Assembly (NCBI RefSeq): GCF_007856155.1
Contig: NZ_CP042266.1
Location: forward strand, 6,510,001 to 6,574,000
Source of the DNA: Streptomyces qinzhouensis
GTDB lineage: Bacteria; Actinomycetota; Actinomycetes; Streptomycetales; Streptomycetaceae
Reading direction: 5' to 3'
Length of the DNA: 64,000 nucleotides
Positions 7,906-12,256 of the stretch are shown one piece after another. The translations under genes were made by a program, and so were the position numbers. Positions within the stretch are counted from its first letter, which is position 1; each line of letters starts with the position of its first letter. Under the pieces are notes generated by a model that was not told the DNA's origin, searched no databases, and was given only the letters and a program-made list of their open reading frames with translations.

Positions 7906-8486
7906 GCTACCGCCATGTCGCACTGATCGGCCGAGCGGGCTCCGGTAAGGACACCGTGGGCGAACATCTGGTCGCCCGCTTTCAGTTCTTCCGGGTGGCG
8001 TTCGCCGATCCGTTGAAGACGCTTGCGCTCGACCTTGACCCGATCGTTTCCAACGAGCCGACCGGGTACGGCCCCCTGTCCCTGCGTCTGTCCGATGTGG
8101 TCCGCCGTGACGGATGGGACCGGGCCAAGCAACTCCCGGAAGTACGACGGCTGTTGCAGCGCACCGGGCAAGCACTCCGGGACCGGGACCCGGACGTGTG
8201 GCTACGGCCCTTGCTCGACAAGATCACCGTTGCCGATCGCTGGAACGTCCCCGTAGTGATCACGGATGTCCGGTACCGCAATGAGGCGGACGCGCTCAGG
8301 AAGCGCGGGGCACTGCTGGTCCAGGTCGACCGTCCCGGAGAGCACGACCACCAGCCCGACCAGGACCAGCGCGAGCACCGGTCCGAGACCGAGCTACGCG
8401 ACTTCCCCGCCGATGCGGTGCTGACGAATGGCGGCACGGTCGCCGAGTTGCACGCCCTTGCGGACCAGCTCGCCGTACGGCGCTGA
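7902..8486 (+). CDS. Deoxynucleoside monophosphate kinase (194 aa)
   Basis: The P-loop GRAGSGKDT (residues 10-18) opens a nucleoside-kinase fold similar to phage dNMP kinases such as phiC31 gp52. RVAFADPLK after the P-loop and a TDVRYRNEADALR motif near residue 125 are characteristic of this family. It phosphorylates dNMPs to feed phage DNA synthesis. GTG 7,902 overlaps the stop of the holin-like gene (GTGA), showing translational coupling. phiC31 also places its dNMP kinase just after the lysis genes. Confidence 0.88.
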   Translation: MSYRHVALIGRAGSGKDTVGEHLVARFQFFRVAFADPLKTLALDLDPIVSNEPTGYGPLSLRLSDVVRRDGWDRAKQLPEVRRLLQRTGQALRDRDPDVWLRPLLDKITVADRWNVPVVITDVRYRNEADALRKRGALLVQVDRPGEHDHQPDQDQREHRSETELRDFPADAVLTNGGTVAELHALADQLAVRR

Positions 8487-8622: not shown

Positions 8623-9459
8623 ATGCCCGGAGCCATCCGGACCATCAAGCGCGGCGGCAGCCGCTTCTATATCCATCCGTCAACCTCCGAAAAGGTTCCG
8701 GGTGTGACCAGCATCGTGGGCATGTTGCCCAAGCCCTACCTGACTTTCTGGGCTGCCCGGATGACCGCCGAAACGGCCGTTGAGAATCTGGACGCCGTAC
8801 GGTCTATCGCTGAGCGGGACCCTGCGGGGGCAGTTGACTTCCTGAGGAACGCACACGTTCGGTACACCAACCTGCGGGCAAAGGTCGGCTCACAGGCGCA
8901 TGACCTTTTCGAGCGCATGATCCGGCTTGAAGAGATTGGCCGTGTGCACCCGGATATGGAGCCGTACCGGCTCGGTTTCGCCGAGTTCCTAACCGCTGTG
9001 CGCCCCGAACTCATTCACGCCGAGGACGTTTGCTGGTCGGATGAGCACGGCTACGCAGGGTCGTTCGATGCCATCGTTCGCGTGCGGCTCGGCGCGGACG
9101 GAAAGCCGGACCACGAAAACGGCGAGTGGCACACGCTGTTGGTCGACTGGAAAACCAGCAAGAGCGCATACCCGGACGTCGCTCTACAGCTTGCTGCGTA
9201 CGCGAATGCGGACCGCGTCATCTCGCCGGACGGCACCAGCAAGCCCATGCCCAAGGTTGACGGCGCTGCGGTGCTCCATATCACCCCGGAGGGTTGGGTG
9301 TTCAAGCCGGTCCGTATCGACTCCGAGATTTTCAATGTCTTTCTGACGCTTCGACACGTGTTCCATTGGGACCGAGACCTGAGCAAGACCGTGTTCGGTG
9401 TGCCGATCGCGGAGAGCGTCCGCCGGCTCATCACCGGAACGCAACGCCGAGCGGCGTAG
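8623..9459 (+). CDS. PD-(D/E)XK exonuclease, RecB/Cas4-like (278 aa)
   Basis: ATG 8,623 follows GAGGGGACACCT, and the in-frame upstream extension is low-complexity and unlikely to be coding. The nuclease motifs are clear: GSQAHDLFERMI (the helix with conserved His), YAGSFDAIVRV with the catalytic Asp near residue 148, LLVDWKTSKS with D-x-K near residues 174-176, and ALQLAAYA (QxxxY-type motif). This is the single-domain phage exonuclease layout used in recombination or host DNA breakdown. It may act with the downstream gp3-like protein, a pairing I infer from adjacency. Confidence 0.85.
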   Translation: MPGAIRTIKRGGSRFYIHPSTSEKVPGVTSIVGMLPKPYLTFWAARMTAETAVENLDAVRSIAERDPAGAVDFLRNAHVRYTNLRAKVGSQAHDLFERMIRLEEIGRVHPDMEPYRLGFAEFLTAVRPELIHAEDVCWSDEHGYAGSFDAIVRVRLGADGKPDHENGEWHTLLVDWKTSKSAYPDVALQLAAYANADRVISPDGTSKPMPKVDGAAVLHITPEGWVFKPVRIDSEIFNVFLTLRHVFHWDRDLSKTVFGVPIAESVRRLITGTQRRAA

Positions 9460-9487
9460 TCGACACCAGCACCATCATTCCCTTTTC

Positions 9488-9520
9488 AGGGCGGAACCCG
9501 GACCACGGGCCGCCCTTTTT
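9488..9520 (+). terminator. Rho-independent terminator after exonuclease gene
   Basis: AGGGCGG (9,488-9,494) pairs with CCGCCCT (9,510-9,516), with an inner CCCG/CGGG stem, followed by TTTTT and CATGCCC. This is a textbook terminator. Confidence 0.85.
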
Positions 9521-9544
9521 CATGCCCAAAATCAGGAGTCATTC

Positions 9545-10240
9545 ATGTCGCTTCGCATTTTCGAGACCGACCCCGACGCTATGCCGAAGGGTTCTTTCAG
9601 TGATGACACCGTGGGGCGTTTCCATGGCGGGAAGCAGGTCGACAACCTGCCGGTGGCACTTTCTGAGTGGCGCGTGACGACCGGTGACCCGGAAGTTGCG
9701 GATGCTATCGCCCAGCTTATGGGCGGGTCGCCGGTAGAGACCGATTCTACTTCCGAGAACTTCATTGAGATCATGACCGATCGGGAAAAGGTTCAGGTGG
9801 TCCTGTCGGGCCCGGACGCTATCGCATCCGACCTGAAGCTGTGGAATGGGAACACCCTGATTCACCACTGTGACGGAGTGGAATTCCTTTCCCCGGATGA
9901 GGACCGGGGTAAGGCGTGCGGGTGCCCCGCCCTAATGGAGGACCGTAAGGCAGCCGCTAAGGCGAAGCGGGGTCCGTCGCCGTCCATTTCGGTCACGTTC
10001 CGGATTGCCGAGGATTACGACCTGGGTATGTTCCGGCTTCAGACCGGATCTTGGAAGCTCGCCGAGGTTCTGCACGAGATTGAGAACGCGCTGAACAAGG
10101 TGGGCAGCGAGGCTCTGTGCACGCTGGAACTTGAGCTGGTGGAGTACACCACAAAGAAAGGTCGCGATGTCAGCTACCGCAAGCCTGTGATTCGTGTTCT
10201 CAAGTCCTGGTCGGATGCTGTTGCCGACCCGGCGCACTAG
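9545..10240 (+). CDS. phiC31 gp3-like protein, candidate recombination directionality factor (231 aa)
   Basis: ATG 9,545 is used because IFETDPDAMPKG and the VGRFHGGKQV stretch that follows match the N-terminus of gp3-like actinophage proteins as I recall them. Further family-like motifs are LSEWRVTTGDPEVADAI (about 40-57), CDGVEFLSPDED (about 111-122), a KACGCPA cysteine pair, and LVEYTTKKGRDVSYRKPVI near the C-terminus. phiC31 gp3 converts the serine integrase from integration to excision, but most homologues are untested and may act in DNA metabolism. The gene lies between the exonuclease and the methyltransferase. An RDF role would imply a large serine integrase outside the window. Confidence 0.75.
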   Translation: MSLRIFETDPDAMPKGSFSDDTVGRFHGGKQVDNLPVALSEWRVTTGDPEVADAIAQLMGGSPVETDSTSENFIEIMTDREKVQVVLSGPDAIASDLKLWNGNTLIHHCDGVEFLSPDEDRGKACGCPALMEDRKAAAKAKRGPSPSISVTFRIAEDYDLGMFRLQTGSWKLAEVLHEIENALNKVGSEALCTLELELVEYTTKKGRDVSYRKPVIRVLKSWSDAVADPAH

Positions 10241-10257: not shown

Positions 10258-10758
10258 ATTCCCATTCTTGAGTTGTGCGCGGGGTACGGCGGAATTGGTC
10301 GGGCCGTTGAGGCATTGACCGGTGACAGGGTGCGGTACGTAGCGGAGATCGACCCGTACGCGTCCCTCATTCTGGAAAAGCGGTACCCCGGCGCACCCAA
10401 CATTGGCGACATTACTCAATTCGACTGGGGAACCCTGCGGGGGCGGGTCGACATCGTCACCGCGGGTTTCCCCTGTCAGGACATCTCAAATGCGGGAAAG
10501 CGGGTGGGAATTCATGGCGAGCGCTCCGGTATCTGGCAGCACGTTGCCGCATCCATTCGCGTCCTACGACCACGGTTCGCATTCTTGGAAAATGTCTCGG
10601 CGATCCGATCGCGCGGTCTCGACGTTGTGGCGGCAGACCTGGCCAAGATCGGGTATGACCTGCGGTGGTGCTGCCTACGAGCGTCCGCAGTGGGCGCCCC
10701 GCACATGCGAGACCGGTGGTTCGGAATCGCCACACTTTCCGACTCCGAAAAGGTCTGA
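10258..10758 (+). CDS. Cytosine-C5 DNA methyltransferase, catalytic part (motifs I-VIII) of a split enzyme
   Basis: Clear C5-methyltransferase motifs occur in order: ILELCAGYGGIG (motif I), VAEIDPYAS (II), GDITQFDW (III), TAGFPCQDIS with catalytic Cys (IV), FAFLENVSAI (VI), and APHMRDRWFG (VIII). The frame then stops at 10,756-10,758 without target-recognition domain, motif IX or motif X. No ATG or GTG precedes motif I in the open stretch. The conserved N-terminus would need ATT at 10,258 (GGGGG about 6 nt upstream). TTG at 10,273 would remove the first beta strand, and the only other option is CTG at 10,207. The last 269 nt are also coding in another frame. By analogy to M.AquI, the enzyme probably needs a partner subunit. 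Confidence 0.8.
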   Translation: MPILELCAGYGGIGRAVEALTGDRVRYVAEIDPYASLILEKRYPGAPNIGDITQFDWGTLRGRVDIVTAGFPCQDISNAGKRVGIHGERSGIWQHVAASIRVLRPRFAFLENVSAIRSRGLDVVAADLAKIGYDLRWCCLRASAVGAPHMRDRWFGIATLSDSEKV

Positions 10759-11248
10759 CGGGCCCAAGGGGTCCCCGAATCAGCGCGGCAGCAAAGGCGA
10801 TTACGCGTTGCCCGGGACCGTGGTGAATCTGCTGCCGACCCCCACCGCAAGCATGTGGAAAGGGGTACAGCCACTCGACAGGAAAGAGACCCGGGACAAT
10901 CTGCCGACCCGGGTTCACCGGCTCTCCGAGGGCGAGAGTCCGCGCGGCTGGTGGGGCGCGTATCTGCCAGTGATTCGCCGTTGGGAAAGGGTTCTCAAAC
11001 GCCCTGCCCCACCCGCTGTTTCACTGACGCGCCGTTCGGTGTACCGGCTGGACCCGGGCTTTGTCGAATGGCTCATGGGGCTACCCGATAGGTGGGTCAC
11101 CGGAATTCCGGGACTCAGCCGCTCGCGACGACTGCAAGTCCTCGGTAACGGAGTCGTTCCGCAGCAAGCACATGCGGCATACGCGTATCTAATGGGAGGT
11201 GATGACGGTACCTCTGAAGCGGAAGAGCGGGAACCGGGCCATTCTTGA
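10490..11248 (+). CDS. Methyltransferase partner 1: TRD/motif X-like protein overprinting the catalytic gene (about 252 aa)
   Basis: The frame is +1 relative to the catalytic gene and overlaps it by about 269 nt. In this frame the overlap itself encodes recognisable family sequence: PFASYDHGSHSWKMSRRS, TWPRSGMTCGGAAYE, then PTPKRSDGPKG. Downstream are LLPTPTASMWKG, RRWERVLKRPAPP, FVEWLMGLPDRWVT and LGNGVVPQQA; the last matches C5-methyltransferase motif X and EWLMGLP resembles the motif IX region. It likely supplies the target-recognition domain and motif X missing from the catalytic subunit. Start is uncertain: ATG 10,490 (CAGG upstream) or 10,514. It shares architecture with the next gene. 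Confidence 0.72.
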   Translation: MRESGWEFMASAPVSGSTLPHPFASYDHGSHSWKMSRRSDRAVSTLWRQTWPRSGMTCGGAAYERPQWAPRTCETGGSESPHFPTPKRSDGPKGSPNQRGSKGDYALPGTVVNLLPTPTASMWKGVQPLDRKETRDNLPTRVHRLSEGESPRGWWGAYLPVIRRWERVLKRPAPPAVSLTRRSVYRLDPGFVEWLMGLPDRWVTGIPGLSRSRRLQVLGNGVVPQQAHAAYAYLMGGDDGTSEAEEREPGHS

Positions 11249-11990
11249 CCGGGGTTCCGGTAGTTGGTTGAAGTACCCCGGATCGAATACCCCCCGGAGA
11301 TTTACAGGGGCTTGGCCGCGCCACGGGACGACCCATGCAGGAATCATGTCCGAACGGTGGGGGCTCGAACCCCCGGTAGTCGAACCGGGCTTTTCTGAGA
11401 TGCCGCTGCTGCCGACCCCCACCGCATCGGATGCCGTGCGTGGACCAGATTTCGCAAAGGCGGACCGCGAGGGGGCCGGGGGCGATGATCTCGTGACCAC
11501 GGTTGCCCGGCTTTTCGACAAGGAACGGGCCCACCGGCTTTTCAAGACACCGACCGCGAACCTCGGCAGCAACGGGGCGTCACAGCACCCGGATAAGCGC
11601 CGTGCGGGTGGCCACGGGCCGACGCTGGACGATGAAGTCTCGTTCCTGCTGCCGGTAGACCCGGACACCGCCGAGGAACAACTCGGAGCCTTTCACTCAC
11701 CCCCGGAATGGTGGGCCGAATATGGGCCGGCTGTGCGCCGCTGGGAAACCCTCATGGGCACCCCCGCACCGATCCCAGTCGAATTCGGTCCTCGCGGTGG
11801 TCGACGGCTCGCAGCGGTGTTCGCAGAATGGCTCATGGGGCTACCCCGGGGGTGGATCACCCATATCCCGGGACTCAACAGGGCCCGGCAACTCAAAGCG
11901 GCAGGAAACGGAGTCGTGGCGCGACAGGCGTTCACGGCCTATCTGCACATGATCAATCACAAGGGGGATGAATGGGAAAGCGGGGCGTGA
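11202..11990 (+). CDS. Methyltransferase partner 2: tandem paralogue with motif X (262 aa)
   Basis: The architecture matches the preceding gene: SGSWLKYPG, AWPRHGTTHAG, LLPTPTASDAVRG, WWAEYGPAVRRWE, FAEWLMGLPRGWIT, then AGNGVVARQAFTAYLHM in the motif X position. Bases 11,066-11,086 and 11,826-11,846 are identical, supporting tandem duplication followed by divergence. The motif X segment reads AGNGVVARQ rather than LGNGVVPQQ. ATG 11,202 (or GTG 11,199) lies right behind GGGAGG and inside the previous gene's 3' end. It could be an alternative specificity subunit for the same catalytic protein or a decayed copy. No catalytic PCQ motif is present. Confidence 0.7.
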   Translation: MTVPLKRKSGNRAILDRGSGSWLKYPGSNTPRRFTGAWPRHGTTHAGIMSERWGLEPPVVEPGFSEMPLLPTPTASDAVRGPDFAKADREGAGGDDLVTTVARLFDKERAHRLFKTPTANLGSNGASQHPDKRRAGGHGPTLDDEVSFLLPVDPDTAEEQLGAFHSPPEWWAEYGPAVRRWETLMGTPAPIPVEFGPRGGRRLAAVFAEWLMGLPRGWITHIPGLNRARQLKAAGNGVVARQAFTAYLHMINHKGDEWESGA

Positions 11991-12256
11991 TCTCTGATTA
12001 CGCGGGCGAGGAACTGTACCGGGGTGACCTGATCAGCTACTCGGCGCGCCAGGGAAACCGGGTGCGGCAGGCAGACGGAATTATCCTAAAGTCCACTACT
12101 CGACTGGTAGATGGGCGGCTCCGGGCAATGCTGCTCGTCCAGCCGACCGGAGTTGAGTCCGGGTTCGTCAAGCGGCGCTCTCTGCGCAAGGAATGGGTGT
12201 CGACCGAGCATGTACGGCTCATCACTCCGGACGTGACCGGAGAGCGGCACCAGTAG
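11972..12256 (+). CDS. Unknown phage protein (94 aa), possibly SH3/KOW-like
   Basis: ATG 11,972 lies behind AGGGGGATGA and overlaps the end of the previous gene by 19 nt. The protein is basic and beta-rich (ELYRGDLISYSARQGNRVRQ, GIILKS, EWVSTEHVRLIT), with the look of a small SH3-like or KOW-like barrel. There are no enzymatic motifs. It ends just before a strong terminator, so it closes the methyltransferase cassette. Confidence 0.6.
   Translation: MGKRGVISDYAGEELYRGDLISYSARQGNRVRQADGIILKSTTRLVDGRLRAMLLVQPTGVESGFVKRRSLRKEWVSTEHVRLITPDVTGERHQ

Follow-up and report, generated by a model that had tools for sequence, protein, structure and literature searches.

Genes and modules at the locus

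A stretch of 64,000 nucleotides from the Streptomyces qinzhouensis chromosome (hereafter the window) contains, on its forward strand, three overlapping genes that read together as a putative split C5-cytosine DNA methyltransferase (C5-MTase): a catalytic chain and two partner chains, TRD1 and TRD2, which carry the position of a target-recognition domain (TRD). The catalytic gene (10258..10758, 166 aa from an ATT start that we infer) spans motifs I to VIII and matches PF00145 (1.3e-32) and phrog_363 (8.1e-55). Inspected by eye, its open reading frame (ORF) shows LELCAGYGG, FPCQD, ENV and VGAPHMRDRWF, which we take to be motifs I, IV, VI and VIII, the set expected of a C5-MTase, with the PCQ of motif IV and the ENV of motif VI in one domain. 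The frame terminates ahead of any TRD or motif X, just as the first-pass annotation of this DNA had described, and its TIGR00675 score of 88.7 bits falls under the cut-off of 100.65, as is expected for a truncated chain. A Shine-Dalgarno-like GGGGG run precedes the ATT, and the codon at this position is ATT or ATA, with a G-rich run upstream, in all nine loci of the window's clade, seven of which have no in-frame canonical start further upstream while two have one; it is ATC in locus L168 and ATT in L169. These features hint that the catalytic chain may initiate weakly, from ATT, ATA or ATC codons. Starts of this rare class were seen at the catalytic gene of the window, L042 to L048, L024, L168 and L169.

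The first partner, TRD1 (10514..11248, 244 aa), is encoded in the +1 frame relative to the catalytic gene and consists of an N-terminal domain (N-domain), two modules and motifs IX and X. Its match to the 'DNA methyltransferase' family phrog_1008 (1.5e-45) begins within the catalytic gene, at residue 18 of this second ORF (about position 10454), and its likely start is the ATG at 10514; 10 of the 19 listed split loci have ATG at this position. From this ATG the overlap with the catalytic gene measures 245 nt (10514..10758), a forward-strand stretch that appears to be coded twice, for catalytic motifs VI to VIII in frame 0 and for the TRD1 N-domain in +1, as indicated by profile matches, synonymous constraint and codon shuffles. 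The second partner, TRD2 (11202..11990, 262 aa, phrog_1008 2e-37), starts at ATG 11202 or GTG 11199, and its first 47-50 nt lie over the end of TRD1. Its own N-domain (11217..11405, limits approximate) is a homologue of the N-domain that the catalytic gene overlaps in L043-type partners, and has no catalytic frame beneath it. The claim that two further genes share PTPTAS-type middles, EWLMGLP and GNGVV and lack PCQ was borne out; that both lie downstream holds for TRD2 and fails for TRD1, which starts inside the catalytic gene. Motifs IX and X are thus carried on separate chains from the catalytic motifs, to judge from EWLMGLP, GNGVV and the matches of both chain ends to phrog_116 or phrog_363, and the TRD is assigned by its position. 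Searches of Pfam and NCBIfam returned no family match for TRD1 or TRD2.

The two partners are identical at 92 of 218 aligned residues, and TRD2 matches the single partner of L043 at 199 of 251, the N-domains of these two giving an alignment score of 140 against a maximum of 51 among 2000 shuffles. Compared with the close relative L042, the window has a ratio of nonsynonymous to synonymous differences per site (pN/pS) of 0.06 in the 5' half of the catalytic gene and of 0.05, 0.07 and 0.23 in three stretches of TRD1 beyond that gene, and the corresponding ratio of substitution rates (dN/dS) in TRD2 is 0.09 for the N-domain and 0.07 for the rest of the chain (dS 1.73 and 0.86, the first being near saturation). 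With values this low, the catalytic gene, TRD1 and TRD2 look like real genes and not the product of a sequencing slip. A frameshift or pseudogene reading of the locus was discarded on the codon-phase results.

In both partners the expected target-recognition position is filled by tandem units of approximately 35 residues, each opening with LLPTP. The module parse places two on the forward strand in TRD1, HFPTPKRSDG...LPGTVVN (10733..10828) and LLPTPTASMWKG...LPTRVHR (10829..10921), and two in TRD2, LLPTPTASDAVRG...LVTTVARL (11406..11513) and LFKTPTANLGSNG...PTLDDEVSF (11538..11645). In all, 327 modules were parsed in 130 chains, with one to six per chain in 88 partner chains, by a loose pattern that also caught some non-module stretches. 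Coarse clustering gave 57 module orders; single linkage was too coarse for typing, one cluster holding 229 of the 327 modules, including three of the window's four. Compared directly, these four have little in common beyond the LLPTPTAS opening. The partner of phage Samy has four modules, some of which resemble those of the window.

The single-chain relative P0117 was modelled as an M.HhaI-type C5-MTase (predicted local distance difference test score, pLDDT, 76.9; best PDB match 1fjx, E 3e-15). For the modules the models speak less favourably: across the module region of P0117 pLDDT is mostly under 50, TRD1 gave a model of poor quality (pLDDT 65.8, predicted template modelling score 0.41), and a structure search with it gave no significant match. 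The equation of module with TRD therefore draws on position and repeat pattern. Within the TRD1 model, the N-domain contains two short pairs of strands; pLDDT in these blocks is 82-84 and 67-77.

Selection in the overlapping frames

The N-domain has, by eye, the consensus [FY]D..S.SW.T...TWP.SGM...G..YE.P....T, which corresponds to the catalytic RP..FLENV...LA.IGYD.RW....VGAPH.R.RW read in +1. When a hidden Markov model (HMM) built from six database proteins was searched against 166 loci plus the window (E <= 0.01), 158 of its 163 matches lay over the catalytic domain in +1, the other five being TRD2 of the window and its four re-fetched copies; TRD2 of L042 was missed by the HMM and was compared directly instead. 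Such overlap proves nothing by itself, because conserved catalytic DNA casts a conserved +1 shadow. The N-domain of the L043 partner lies under a catalytic gene, unlike that of TRD2 in the window and L042, where the two other offsets contain 5 and 3 stops and 3 and 2 stops, respectively. A dN/dS of 0.09 in the TRD2 N-domain, where a catalytic frame is absent, marks the N-domain as a protein segment under selection.

Within the overlap itself, selection on both frames was found in two sets of loci. In the L043 clade (seven split loci) the fast codon position moves from 3 to 1 at the end of the catalytic gene. Frame-0 pN/pS is 0.12 in the catalytic 5' half; in the overlap frame 0 has a ratio of 0.44 and +1 one of 0.34, frame-0 pS being halved (from 0.44 to 0.21), and beyond the catalytic gene it is 0.10-0.17 in +1. 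The second set comprises 64 split loci with low G+C content at third codon positions (GC3; 1829 pairs), in which synonymous mismatch, relative to an amino-acid-stratified expectation, is 0.62-0.85 over positions 10558-10737 and 0.96-1.04 in earlier bins (column medians 0.80 vs 1.00; Mann-Whitney U test, MWU, 2.8e-11; circular-shift p 0.007). The ratio was 0.59 vs 1.05 in the nine loci of the window's clade (MWU 3e-4, circular-shift 0.055) and 0.90 vs 1.04 in 27 Streptomyces split loci (MWU 0.007, circular-shift 0.060). Codon shuffles that keep the protein and the codon set, with an N-domain score trained on loci below 65% identity, were exceeded by the +1 N-domain (p<=0.05) in 59/64 low-GC3 split, 21/27 high-GC3 split and 35/41 single loci, against 0/64, 3/27 and 5/41 in an upstream control zone; counts are given because some z-scores in that zone are undefined (zero variance in the shuffle set). 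For the window the z-score is 3.3.

Several results weigh against dual coding as a general property. In the window/L042 pair the overlap looks dominated by the catalytic frame, with pN/pS of 0.08 in frame 0 and 0.94 in +1, and the pair alone therefore does not show +1 constraint. The +1 ratio is likewise high (1.33, 0.81 and 0.76) in three groups that have motifs IX and X in frame 0, where frame-0 pS is halved in two (0.30 to 0.15, 0.35 to 0.16), the third showing no such drop (0.12 to 0.16). No synonymous dip was found in 27 high-GC3 split loci (distant pairs, 1.02) or in 11 split loci at GC3 0.55-0.7 (1.20); 37 high-GC3 single loci had none either (1.11). Finally, the +2 frame of the overlap also rises above the shuffles (52/64, 17/27 and 34/41), and the shuffle test therefore marks nucleotide constraint and does not tell which frame causes it. 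Joint selection on the two frames is accordingly visible in the L043 clade and the low-GC3 split loci, and not in the window/L042 pair or in high-GC3 split loci at large.

Loci in which the catalytic domain and motifs IX and X share one frame had been considered as a clean negative control and were rejected as such, given that they contain selected +1 modules. In 42 loci of this kind, module motifs occur 52 times in frame 0, 97 times in +1 and once in +2; modules are confined to +1 in 21 loci and to frame 0 in one, and 20 have them in both frames. By the length of their +1 ORF, L037 and L080, counted among the 21, resemble the mixed kind. Immediately beyond the catalytic domain, selection acts on +1 in the L013 group (five loci, pN/pS 0.13 vs 3.5 in frame 0) and in a second group of nine loci (0.29 vs 2.8). 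In both of these groups selection passes to frame 0 at the following module, and the +1 ORF ends at a TGA a few bases before the LLPTP codons of that module; in the L049 group (five loci, some of them close copies) +1 pN/pS stays at 0.14-0.27 through 390 nt. The '+1-only' loci are candidates for a specificity chain nested in the methylase ORF.

A +1 ORF made of the N-domain and one module, ending at a TGA before the next frame-0 module, was seen in L013, L014, L015, L016, L018, L019, L020, L023, L030, L031, L033, L036, L037 and L038. Coupled reinitiation at these stops is possible because the +1 TGA always overlaps a frame-0 NTG codon. Modules found only in +1, with motifs IX and X in the catalytic frame, were seen in L006, L009, L032, L039, L040, L049, L050, L051, L053, L096, L115-L117, L123-L125, L145, L147 and L164.

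Distribution and origin of the partner chains

Using HMMs for the catalytic core, the partner N-domain and motifs IX/X, 163 loci (including re-fetched copies) were classed and then reduced to 140 by keeping one per group with catalytic DNA at least 97% identical. The split arrangement, in which the catalytic ORF lacks motifs IX and X and a +1 ORF carries them, accounts for 91 of these, another 41 having the catalytic domain and IX/X in one ORF and eight falling in other classes; as catalytic and partner queries were used to collect the loci, these counts are not population frequencies. Two tandem partners for one catalytic chain occur in 2 of the 91 split loci, the window and L042, and an adjacent tandem pair, sought in 392 genomes, appeared only in the window's own genome among the matches listed. 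The combination had been put forward by the first-pass annotation as one it did not recognise; the rarity of tandem partners agrees with that, and the frequency of the split itself does not.

Sequences like the partners are common in phages: by tblastn (E <= 1e-5), TRD1-like sequence is present in 568 and TRD2-like sequence in 570 of 50,697 phage records, 437 each from Mycobacterium, counts that include partners fused to a catalytic domain. Within the genus, 77 of 295 genomes have a match to phrog_1008, and TRD2-like sequence is present in 103 of 392 genomes. Four database proteins that seemed to stand alone (P0074, P0007, P0044 and P0050) were considered as non-overlapping partners and rejected: among loci that included 80, out of 554 available, fetched with an alignment of such proteins, N-domain matches with no catalytic gene beneath were found only in TRD2 of the window.

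Several Streptomyces and mycobacterial phage records annotate the pair as two adjacent 'DNA methylase' genes. In phiBT1 (L054, AJ550940.2), gp9.1 carries the annotation 'DNA methylase may be inactive' and the record lists no partner; a +1 partner ORF with an N-domain and motifs IX/X overlaps gp9.1. In phage Babsiella (L056, 1438-1746), gp55, a 'DNA methylase domain protein', is a +1 ORF nested in gp54 that reads as specificity modules, with an N-domain just upstream of the annotated start.

The tandem arrangement probably arose when a recombination within the catalytic gene brought in TRD1. In its 5' half the window's catalytic gene is 0.82-0.87 identical to those of L043-48 and L024, and in its 3' half 0.69-0.72; identities to the window for the 5' and 3' halves are 0.64/0.64 for L002 and 0.61/0.68 for L027. 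A tree of the 5' half places the window and L042 with the L043 clade (support 0.955), and that of the 3' half sets them apart from it (0.938), with L027, L028, L002 and the L001 group. A crossover fits because the two trees differ and because the TRD2 N-domain stands without a catalytic frame; for the placement of that domain a protein alignment was used, its DNA tree having given a very long branch. Two observations tell against the crossover: identity also falls from the 5' to the 3' half for L028 (0.72/0.64) and L141 (0.75/0.65), and therefore part of the fall is general, and the nearest 3'-half neighbour, L027, has a support of just 0.73. In the order of events that this implies, a catalytic gene served by TRD2 as its sole partner would have received, by recombination, a foreign segment made up of a catalytic 3' half and TRD1; TRD2 would have retained its old N-domain while the catalytic frame beneath it decayed.

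Proposed enzyme, known systems and prophage setting

We consider it probable that the three genes encode an orphan split C5-MTase of a phage, in which one catalytic chain is common to two specificity chains with four different modules, the first chain being overprinted in +1. The catalytic chain, holding the cofactor-binding motifs and the PCQ nucleophile within motifs I-VIII, would on its own be unable to select a target. Modules for target recognition, together with motifs IX-X, would come from TRD1 and from TRD2, both of which probably associate with this one catalytic chain, so that two holoenzymes of differing target sets would result. TRD1 would be translated from the ATG inside the catalytic gene, its N-domain overprinted on motifs VI-VIII, and TRD2 would follow via its overlap with the end of TRD1. 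A broadened target specificity is plausible, because the four modules, two per partner, differ in sequence. The sequences show the gene layout, selection on the reading frames in the groups named above and the scarcity of tandem partners among the loci studied; chain assembly, methylation, specificity, the start codons and the order of events are inferences. In layout, the genes support the earlier suggestion that the C5-MTase is split and has two candidate partners, which carry the TRD position and motifs IX/X.

Four other explanations were weighed. One partner might be the only working one, the other being a passing duplicate left by recombination, as the scarcity of tandem partners (just two of the split loci) would suggest; yet the low ratios against L042 (pN/pS 0.05-0.23 in TRD1, dN/dS 0.07-0.09 in TRD2) argue that both have been kept since the window and L042 lineages parted, and we regard this as unlikely, though the strongest of the alternatives. 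A little less probable is that the catalytic gene and TRD1 are a single gene, linked by ribosomal frameshifting or broken by a recent indel, whose product is a fused enzyme to which TRD2 is an extra. The two frames do adjoin and overlap, and fused single-chain homologues exist, but the split recurs in 91 non-redundant loci, and the N-domain, although it precedes any useful shift site, shows selection in the partner frame among L043-clade loci and persists in TRD2 without the catalytic frame. Nor was a common heptamer seen by eye in the +1 stop contexts of the 41 loci with IX/X in frame 0, the 3' ends of the catalytic genes not having been scanned for slippery sites.

That the constraint in the overlap stems from an RNA or DNA element, the +1 reading being a by-product, seems improbable, slightly more so than either of these. 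It would account for the raised +2 frame and for the window/L042 pair and three other groups in which +1 constraint is not clear; against it stand the +1 pN/pS of 0.34 in the L043 overlap, the selection of the TRD2 N-domain only in its own frame, and the distribution of stops, which in the last two bins of the split loci number 16 in 2451 and 0 in 1543 codons in +1, compared with 100 and 44 in +2, a contrast partly conditioned on the open +1 ORF. The notion that the partner ORFs are unrelated to methylation could appeal to the want of Pfam and NCBIfam matches for TRD1 and TRD2 and of a significant structural match for TRD1, but it is very hard to reconcile with the phrog_1008 matches of both, with phrog_116 or phrog_363 at their IX/X ends, and with the same modules and motifs standing in frame behind the catalytic domain in single-chain relatives; we give it scarcely any credence.

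Beyond the shared-catalytic-chain enzyme proposed for the window, we lean, with modest confidence, towards a widespread family of phage C5-MTases whose specificity chain lies in +1 over its own catalytic gene, with an N-domain born by overprinting motifs VI-VIII. It would comprise the 91 of 140 loci whose +1 ORF unites N-domain, modules and motifs IX/X and up to 21 more of the nested kind, the window being a one-to-two system with four modules. Should this be right, many phage 'DNA methylase' annotations would be mis-started or half-annotated, phiBT1 gp9.1 may be whole once its overlapping partner is counted, and TRD2 would exemplify a protein domain that arose by overprinting and came to stand by itself, which would make the independent function of overprinted segments directly testable. 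It would also suggest a way for one catalytic chain to serve a phage with several methylation specificities.

The catalytic-partner pair is the same as that of the actinophages RemusLoopin (34/35), Lilbooboo (32/33), Samora (34/35), Samy (49/50), Mundrea (gp78/gp77) and phiBT1 (gp9.1), although these have one partner each, with an annotated overlap of 32-83 nt or none, whereas the window has two. As a natural two-chain enzyme, M.EcoHK31I resembles the system proposed for the window; its beta chain is said to lie in an alternative frame within the alpha gene and, if so, the overlap has a precedent. According to the relevant passage of PMC3404938, the large chain of M.EcoHK31I holds motifs I-VIII, X and the TRD and the small chain motif IX only, unlike the partner chains of the window, which hold the modules, IX and X. 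The split described there for M.AquI, with motifs I-VIII on one chain and the distal variable region plus IX-X on the other, is the layout of the window genes, and the locus possibly works in this way, as a split and perhaps multispecific C5-MTase; M.AquI has one small chain, and that passage does not mention multi-module partners or an overprinted N-domain, both of which the window has. In the multispecific C5-MTases of Bacillus phages (SPR, phi3T, rho11, SPbeta and H2), as presented in part of PMC8936443, tandem TRDs that recognise several targets lie in the enzyme's own coding sequence; in the family of the window the modules are on separate chains, mostly in another frame. ShiLan-type methylases, in the portion of PMC11855218 that deals with them, hide an HNH protein in another frame within the phage methylase gene, a likeness to the window as regards the second frame, although the hidden protein is an inserted homing endonuclease and not a part of the enzyme. 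In the literature searched, on split, overlapping, nested and multispecific methylases and on phiBT1, no paper was recognised as describing the overlap, most subscription papers being outside reach; as far as that search goes, the tandem partners, the N-domain overprinted and then released, and the wide use of a +1 specificity design appear to be new, which does not establish their absence from print.

The window sits in a single-contig chromosome of 8.15 Mb. Phage genes fill its first part, and we therefore take positions 1-22745 to be a phiC31-like prophage or remnant, or part of one. Family matches identify a tape measure/endolysin-like gene at 1030 and an exonuclease gene at 8428. Upstream of the methylase genes lies a recombination directionality factor-like gene of the phiC31 gp3 type (9398..10240, forward strand, start uncertain; PF18897 1.7e-15, phrog_9220 1.4e-92), and a phiC31 gp4-like small protein (11972..12256, forward strand, phrog_13282) overlaps the end of TRD2 by 19 nt. 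The phrog_13282 family also adjoins the methylase pair in phage Samy, where it is annotated as phiC31 gp4-like. Further on are a RusA-like protein (12494), a primase (12996), a DNA polymerase (15379) and a phage regulator (19752). The same genome has a second, more distant locus of the family on the reverse strand (G000:C1:4294685-4295433, loci L009/L010), with modules in +1 and motifs IX and X in the catalytic frame.

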